From assembly GCA_026985095.1 (NCBI GenBank), contig JALSQW010000018.1, positions 149,989 to 213,988 of the forward strand: a DNA stretch of 64,000 bases. The letters run 5' to 3'. Source of the stretch: Acidimicrobiia bacterium (GTDB taxonomy: Bacteria > Actinomycetota > Acidimicrobiia > Spongiisociales > UBA5794). The notes beneath the pieces are model-generated. The model was given only the letters and a program-made list of their open reading frames with translations, ran no database searches and was not told where the DNA came from. Positions 33,802 to 35,103 of this stretch are shown one piece after another; the first letter of the stretch is position 1; every line of letters begins with the position of its first letter. The translations under genes and the position numbers were made by a program.

Positions 33802-33830
33802 TTGCGAACACCTGTTCGATGGTGTACGTT
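33802..33830 (+). promoter_or_regulatory. SOS promoter with LexA box
   Basis: A LexA box of the actinobacterial type, CGAAC-acct-GTTCG, occupies 33805-33818 and is perfectly symmetric in both half-sites. It overlaps the minus-35 TTGCGA (33802-33807) and the spacer. The minus-10 TACGTT is at 33825-33830, 17 bp from the minus-35. LexA bound here would block RNA polymerase. Transcription would begin near 33837, just before the Shine-Dalgarno and the GTG at 33858. Confidence 0.75.
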
Positions 33831-33857
33831 GCCGGCTCGGGCGGACGAGGGACGAAC

Positions 33858-34907
33858 GTGGCGACCGGTACTCGCACCTGGGGGATCGAACTGCAGACGC
33901 TGCTCGGCGAGCTCGCCGAGGCGCAGGGAAGCCCCGACCGGATCCTCCGACCCGCCGACGTCACACCGCTGGCCCGCGACCTGGATGCTCGGGTGAGCCT
34001 GCTCCGGTCGGTCGTCACCCGGCGGGACCGTCTCCTCGAGGAGCGTCGCCGGCTGGAGGCGTCCATCCACGGCTACGGACGGGCCCTCGAACTGCTCGAA
34101 GCGACCGACCAGGTCGACGCCGGCCCCGTCGAGCGCAGCCTCCGGAGTCGGGTGCACGAGCTGCGCCGCCGACTCGTCGAGCTCGCCGACGACATCGCTC
34201 CGATGCAGCGGCGGGTCGAGCGGCTCGAGGTCGAGGTCGAGTCCCTGCGCGGTCGCATCGTCACCGAGCTGCGACATGCCGTCGAGGCCGCCCGGGTGAA
34301 CCGGCTCGCGACCCGCACGCACGCCCGCGGTCTCGTCGAGCGTTCCCGCACGGACCCCATCGATCTCGAGGTCCTTTGGTCACCGGTTCCCGTCACCGGA
34401 TACCGAGCGTGGAACATCCGCCACGACGGCCTCTACGGCGCCCGGCGGCGGTGGCTGCGCCCGACGCTGACGGCGGGCTGCCGGGAGGGCCTCGACGTGC
34501 CCCACGTCGACGGCCGGTGCGCCGAGGTGGCGTTCGGGTGCGGCATCTACGCGGCGAAGTCGGTGCCGAGGCTCCTCGCCGACTTCGACATCGACGGTGA
34601 CACCCGGGTGGCCGTCGGCCGGGTCGACCTCGAGGGGAGGGTCGTGGAGCACGATCACGGCTACCGGGCACAGCAGGCGACCGTACGCGCGCTCGCCGTC
34701 GTCGACCGCGACGTGGTCCGCTTCGCGGCCGACGAGGAGCGCATCCGGGGGCTCTTCATCGATCCGCGGGAGGCACCGCTCCTCGCCGCCCAGGTGGGGC
34801 GCCTGCCCCTGCCGACCCGTGAGCTGCGACGACTGATCGACGACCTGATCCGAGAACCGGCCGACGGCTACGCACGGCGGCTCTCGGGGGAGCCCGGGCC
34901 CGCATGA
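33858..34907 (+). CDS. SOS-controlled coiled-coil protein with C-terminal CGIYA domain, unknown function
   Basis: 349 residues. The GTG at 33858 follows GAGGGA and fits the SOS promoter; an ATG at 33819 would begin upstream of the expected transcript start. Residues about 45-150 are strongly helical, Arg/Glu/Leu-rich and look like a long coiled coil. The C-terminal region (about 175-325) starts GYRAWNIR and has Cys208, His216, Cys221 and Cys228 in a CGIYAAKS segment, which could bind a metal or be redox active. I recall similar CGIYA-type domains in uncharacterised actinobacterial proteins, but I know no function. The LexA box implies a role in the DNA damage response. Confidence 0.75.
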   Translation: MATGTRTWGIELQTLLGELAEAQGSPDRILRPADVTPLARDLDARVSLLRSVVTRRDRLLEERRRLEASIHGYGRALELLEATDQVDAGPVERSLRSRVHELRRRLVELADDIAPMQRRVERLEVEVESLRGRIVTELRHAVEAARVNRLATRTHARGLVERSRTDPIDLEVLWSPVPVTGYRAWNIRHDGLYGARRRWLRPTLTAGCREGLDVPHVDGRCAEVAFGCGIYAAKSVPRLLADFDIDGDTRVAVGRVDLEGRVVEHDHGYRAQQATVRALAVVDRDVVRFAADEERIRGLFIDPREAPLLAAQVGRLPLPTRELRRLIDDLIREPADGYARRLSGEPGPA

Positions 34908-34932: not shown

Positions 34933-35103
34933 ATGGACATCGGAACGCAGCGGCGAGTGATCGTGGTCGAGCCACTCCGCCTCGACGACCCGCCGGAACC
35001 GGAGGCCGGGCCGGTCGCCGGCCCCGGCGAGCCCGTCGCATCCCCCGGCACGGATCGGACACCGGCGCCGACCGCGGCGAGGCGCCTCGAGGGAGCGTCG
35101 TAG
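34933..35103 (+). CDS. Small hypothetical protein
   Basis: A 56-residue ORF with ATG at 34933 preceded by GAGAGGA. The N-terminus is ordered (RRVIVVEPLRLDD) and the rest is a Pro/Ala/Gly-rich tail. It lies 25 bp downstream of the SOS gene on the same strand with no separate promoter, so it may be co-transcribed with it. I do not recognise it, and it may not be translated. Confidence 0.5.
   Translation: MDIGTQRRVIVVEPLRLDDPPEPEAGPVAGPGEPVASPGTDRTPAPTAARRLEGAS

Follow-up and report, generated by a model that had tools for sequence, protein, structure and literature searches.

A putative SOS-regulated CGIYA-DIG operon in an Acidimicrobiia genome

Overview of the Operon

The window (the whole 64 kb stretch of DNA that was analysed) carries two adjacent genes that probably form an SOS-regulated operon, CGIYA-DIG, encoding an accessory effector of the DNA-damage response. 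The first gene encodes a helical protein with a beta domain named CGIYA, and the second encodes a microprotein named DIG. The names come from this analysis or from the sequence-only reading, and no description of a CGIYA-DIG module was found in open-access text. Conservation falls on the LexA box, the CGIYA domain, and DIG. The coordinates of all features are listed in Table 1.

Table 1. Features of the CGIYA-DIG operon and its promoter (window positions).
Feature	Position	Strand	Remarks
-35 element TTGCGA	33802-33807	+	Overlapped by the LexA box; TTGCGAAC conserved in homologous promoters
LexA (SOS) box CGAACACCTGTTCG	33805-33818	.	Sole perfect match in the window; before 35/36 homologues
-10-like element TACGTT	33825-33830	+	17 bp after the -35 element; TAnGnT-like hexamer in most homologous promoters
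Coiled-coil and CGIYA-domain protein, 349 aa	33858-34907	+	Open frame; homologues in 26/60 relatives; AlphaFold2 pLDDT 85
N-terminal helical hairpin, residues 35-163	33960-34346	+	AlphaFold2 helices 35-82 and 89-163; variable
CGIYA beta domain, ~residues 174-289, ~115 aa	34377-34724	+	Alignments; domain model pLDDT 86, pTM 0.83
Putative zinc cluster C208, H216, C221, C228	34479-34541	+	Invariant in 20-member alignment
DIG microprotein gene, 56 aa, MDIGTQRRVIVVEPL...	34933-35103	+	Adjoins the CGIYA gene, same strand

LexA Box and Promoter Conservation

The only perfect CGAAC-N4-GTTCG sequence in the window is CGAACACCTGTTCG, with a chance expectation of 0.21. A perfect box was also present in 20 of 100 shuffled windows, which speaks for a chance palindrome before a gene outside SOS regulation. 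A lone perfect box in 64 kb could indeed be luck, and its reality rests on conservation upstream of homologues.

Homologues of the CGIYA protein were found by protein search in 26 of 60 relatives. Twenty formed a first set. One of these had its upstream end cut off; each of the 19 others, counting that of the window, had a perfect box close to the start. To this set were added 33 loci of named assemblies from actinobacteria, most of them Acidimicrobiia, and the results of an order-wide search. Identical domains were removed and only members with usable upstream sequence were taken, giving 36 non-identical homologues, the window's own among them. A perfect box was found before 29 of them and a box with one mismatch before six, and one had none. 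The resulting 35/36 stands against a chance expectation of <0.1 of 36 (from ~20 sites per ~3 Mb genome), with the reservation that the 36 are related and so are not independent events, although several families of the order are represented. The homologue without a box is one of two neighbouring CGIYA copies in L089. In L175, the same locus, two adjacent CGIYA genes were observed; a perfect LexA box belongs to one of them, and the second lacks a box of its own. Since the box was kept before the homologues, it is regarded as real, and a chance palindrome is highly improbable, as is a gene outside SOS regulation unless some other regulator recognises this motif.

The homologous promoters have the consensus TTGCGAACAnnTGTTCGAT, which would place LexA over the -35 element. 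The sequence-only reading had described a perfect LexA box over a -35/-10 pair with 17 bp spacing, and both the coordinates and the description hold in the sequence. It had also proposed LexA control, to be checked by the pairing of motif and protein in related genomes, with absence of the box before orthologues as counterevidence. The box counts among the homologues, and the recurrence of the motif at recA and further SOS genes of this genome, strongly support this proposal. The gene may, as that reading further suggested, take part in repair or a damage checkpoint.

SOS Regulon of the Host Genome

The host genome contains a clear lexA gene and 23 LexA-type sites, compared with one site for a reversed control motif. 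A near-perfect box lies just before lexA itself, and recA has a box ~110 bp upstream. The motif appears to be the SOS box of this organism, and the CGIYA gene is very likely under SOS control. Its repression by LexA and induction by DNA damage are predicted with high confidence.

Several further SOS-type loci were observed. A gene divergent from lexA (L067:618-950, minus strand; G000 contig C37) encodes a membrane-plus-LysM protein, and the intergenic region between the two genes holds three LexA-type boxes (two perfect and one with a mismatch). Position and protein type are the usual ones for actinobacterial SOS division inhibitors, and this gene is probably the SOS division inhibitor of the lineage. 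Another gene (L071:752-2389, minus strand; G000 contig C56), in which a DnaQ-type exonuclease is fused with a GIY-YIG nuclease and a UVR motif, has a perfect LexA box ~50 bp upstream. More perfect boxes, whose conserved form is CGAACATACGTTCG or CGAACGTATGTTCG, were found in G000 at L068:2227, L069:2281, and L073:2445, before or between genes of uncertain function. By eye, one of these genes is possibly imuA-like; it had no Pfam match.

CGIYA Protein

The best start of the CGIYA gene is the GTG at 33858, behind GAGGGA, a ribosome-binding-type sequence. In the AlphaFold2 model, the C-terminal beta domain follows the long helices, and no membrane segment was seen. Among the homologues, the N-terminal helices are long, short, or replaced. 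This coiled coil, the least conserved part, may set assembly or target choice. The open frame and the model confirm the earlier description of a gene for a coiled-coil protein with a C-terminal CGIYA domain. The coiled coil put forward as its main trait in the title of the sequence-only reading is present, and the emphasis falls on what proved to be the most variable part.

The three Cys and one His of the putative zinc cluster, already noted from the sequence as lying in a short span, occur within 21 residues. The three Cys are still invariant in a wider 30-member set, and the His position is occupied by Cys in several distant CGIYA members. His/Cys swaps are typical of zinc ligands. The invariant ligands and this exchange support the metal site guessed earlier, and the cluster quite likely binds zinc. 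At other actinobacterial loci (L101, L136, L138, L177, and L178), CGIYA domains joined to membrane-segment-like stretches were observed, in which the His ligand is often Cys.

The searches of Pfam, NCBIfam, PHROGs, and PADLOC revealed no family match for the protein other than coiled-coil or low-complexity noise; with the PADLOC models of known anti-phage defence systems, this was coiled-coil-type noise at E 0.037. Foldseek with the full-length protein returned coiled coils only. A PDB sequence search gave no matches with A2 and only weak matches to the ribosomal L32 zinc-ribbon (E 0.05) with the broader A7, which were not taken as a sign of homology. The clear fold matches of the CGIYA domain model were phage CGIYA proteins, followed by DUF7666 proteins. 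The structure matches in the PDB were weak and led by ADP-ribosyltransferase (ART)-related entries, the best with E 0.29. No conserved acidic residue was found across the CGIYA family in the alignments. This lack of a conserved catalytic acid makes binding, and not catalysis, the probable mode of action of the domain.

DIG Microprotein

In the window, the DIG gene begins 25 nt after the CGIYA gene, has its own ribosome-binding-type sequence, and does not overlap it. The N-terminal pattern of the peptide is MDIGxxRRVIxVEP, and this is the only copy found in the genome. An alignment of the DIG N-terminus was searched against 138 genomes of the order, with matches of E up to 1e-3 counted as strong. 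For 28 of the 31 strong matches, a CGIYA gene is present on the same strand at a distance of no more than 1.5 kb. Although the seed peptides were taken from CGIYA loci, whole genomes were searched, which makes the location of the new matches a fair test.

The DIG start codon of most homologues falls inside the CGIYA gene, 10 or 28 nt short of its end, and this overlap of start and stop makes coupled translation of the two genes probable. The WT or WI that recurs at the C-terminus of the CGIYA protein arises because the MDI codons are read in another frame. For 9 of the 36 homologues, no DIG start was found in the segment inspected behind the CGIYA stop; one of these nine, the G043 copy, has DIG upstream. 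The DIG partner downstream had been missed in the sequence-only reading, which dealt with one gene only.

Distribution in Other Actinomycetota and Phages

A scan of the genome contigs with a single protein gave no matches, and an alignment scan gave 33 loci. The CGIYA domain was detected in 40 of 397 genomes across the phylum. The scanned relatives from other lineages showed no perfect LexA box in their upstream sequence. A DIG-like ORF was present on the same strand at 13 of 29 loci from other Actinomycetota (a few of these 29 being divergent members from the window's own order), nearly always directly upstream of CGIYA, and on the opposite strand at 1 of 29. In other Actinomycetota, the pair stands mostly in reverse gene order. 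The CGIYA-DIG module appears to be older than its SOS control.

In the Streptomyces phages BRock, GiJojo, LuckySocke, Alone3, and pSt2308, an MDIG/MNIG gene comes after the CGIYA gene and overlaps it. The corresponding pair of the window, the CGIYA domain (34377-34724) and the adjacent DIG gene (34933-35103), lies on one strand. The BRock-type phage loci (L183:1637-2517, L184:2196-3079, L203:1447-2345, and L205:1456-2333) have an HNH endonuclease gene nearby and, in several cases, a ribbon-helix-helix gene. The plasmid matches were weak, and with a second query none passed E 1e-3. That CGIYA and DIG are paired in both gene orders, and in cells as well as phages, points to two proteins that work together, and a two-protein complex is likely.

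Many complete relatives, G001 of the same genus among them, lack the operon, which is thus not essential. Its neighbours in the window are housekeeping genes, and the neighbours differ between genomes; no shared gene neighbourhood beyond DIG was found among the homologue loci. A second, distant CGIYA gene was observed in the host genome itself (G000, C8:126359-126631, L173; 25.7 bits), with no LexA box directly upstream. At L131:1278-1500, a DIG peptide reads in frame into a CGIYA motif before meeting a stop, and the remainder of the domain is in a different frame; this is possibly a decayed fusion or a sequencing error.

Alternative Explanations

An ART enzyme was the initial reading and was moved down among the rivals for lack of a conserved catalytic acid. 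CGIYA would then be an ART-fold enzyme and DIG its antidote, together an SOS-induced toxin-antitoxin-like pair. The best PDB matches are led by ART-related entries (the Rhs toxin complexes TreX and TreTu, CARDS, and PARP domains), several viral ART/PARP proteins stand low in the viral Foldseek list, and the GIYA strand followed by a helix recalls the PARP GIYFA motif. Two small genes that usually overlap, one encoding a tiny partner, also resemble toxin-antitoxin operons, with the window copy showing a gap instead. However, the E-values of the ART matches are at least 0.29, and any chain of the Rhs complexes may be the one matched. No Glu is conserved across the CGIYA family, E264-H265 are lost in phage and other members, and no match to defence or toxin models was obtained, which leaves such a pair unlikely. 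The sharing of the gene pair with Streptomyces phages and its patchy distribution raise a different thought, that of a phage-derived or anti-phage module kept by bacteria and switched on in the SOS response, for example against induced prophages. The adjoining housekeeping genes, which vary between genomes and include no prophage or defence genes, the lack of a PADLOC match, and the breadth of the bacterial family in Acidimicrobiia make this reading rather improbable.

The coiled-coil protein could also act with DIG as a brake that halts division or replication after damage. SOS control, the coiled coil, and the accessory, non-essential nature of the gene would fit such a role, but it lost weight when the LysM gene was found beside lexA, since this gene, with its three LexA-type boxes, probably already fills that slot in the genome. 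The model of the window protein, in addition, has no membrane segment, and a division brake is considered improbable.

Proposed Mechanism and Significance

In the favoured explanation, an SOS-regulated accessory effector operon, LexA bound to the box over the -35 element would block transcription. After DNA damage, activated RecA would promote the self-cleavage of LexA, and one mRNA for both proteins would be made; this switch is deduced from the conserved promoter and from the lexA and recA genes of the genome. The first gene would yield a helical protein whose CGIYA domain is stabilised by zinc, and the second the DIG microprotein, translated in step with the first through the start/stop overlap in most relatives. 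Their linkage across the phylum and in phages, in both gene orders, makes it most likely that the two proteins bind each other and function as a unit. In Acidimicrobiia, the older module would have been joined to N-terminal helices and placed under LexA.

The gene pair is probably a real and unstudied cell module. A broader proposition is evenly balanced: that CGIYA-DIG is an undescribed module of Actinomycetota and their phages, in which a zinc-cluster domain works only with a microprotein marked by an N-terminal MDIG motif, and that in one branch it became an effector dedicated to the SOS response. SOS genes without an assigned function are nothing new, and many SOS genes have been identified; new ones that are conserved across several families of an order and have a private partner are rarer. 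Such a gene could uncover a step of the damage response beyond the model bacteria. It offers a testable handle in the form of a domain absent from Pfam, NCBIfam, and PHROGs and a microprotein that annotation may overlook, and the phage versions sit in genetically workable Streptomyces hosts.

Comparison with Known Systems

The window box shares the form of the Streptomyces LexA motif, tCGAAC-N4-GNNCGa (PMC9380542). Its core, read as the reverse complement, matches the M. tuberculosis recA box given in PMC8607333, where nanomolar binding of M. tuberculosis LexA to the tested boxes was also reported. The window gene differs from the known LexA regulon of Actinomycetota in that its product has no annotated relative, and this product is not named as a regulon member in PMC9380542 or PMC8607333.

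The DUF7666 proteins (PF24703), mostly from phages, match the CGIYA domain with a Foldseek probability of 1.00 and a TM of ~0.4. In hhalign, the CGIYA strand is laid on their G-x-H-x-C strand and the next hairpin is aligned, at a probability of only 7.5-18%, and the Pfam scans of the window protein and its relatives gave no DUF7666 match. The ART-fold proteins (PARP and Rhs ART toxins) bear a weak structural resemblance to the CGIYA beta domain, which differs from them in having an extra Cys/His cluster and no conserved catalytic Glu. With Streptomyces phage BRock (gp216-gp215) and its relatives, the window shares the pair itself, a CGIYA protein gene followed by a microprotein gene, which overlaps it in the phages. 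The BRock protein matches the window CGIYA domain at a Foldseek E of 1.2e-5 with ~30-32% identity, and differs in carrying this domain at the N-terminus, whereas in the window protein it is C-terminal.
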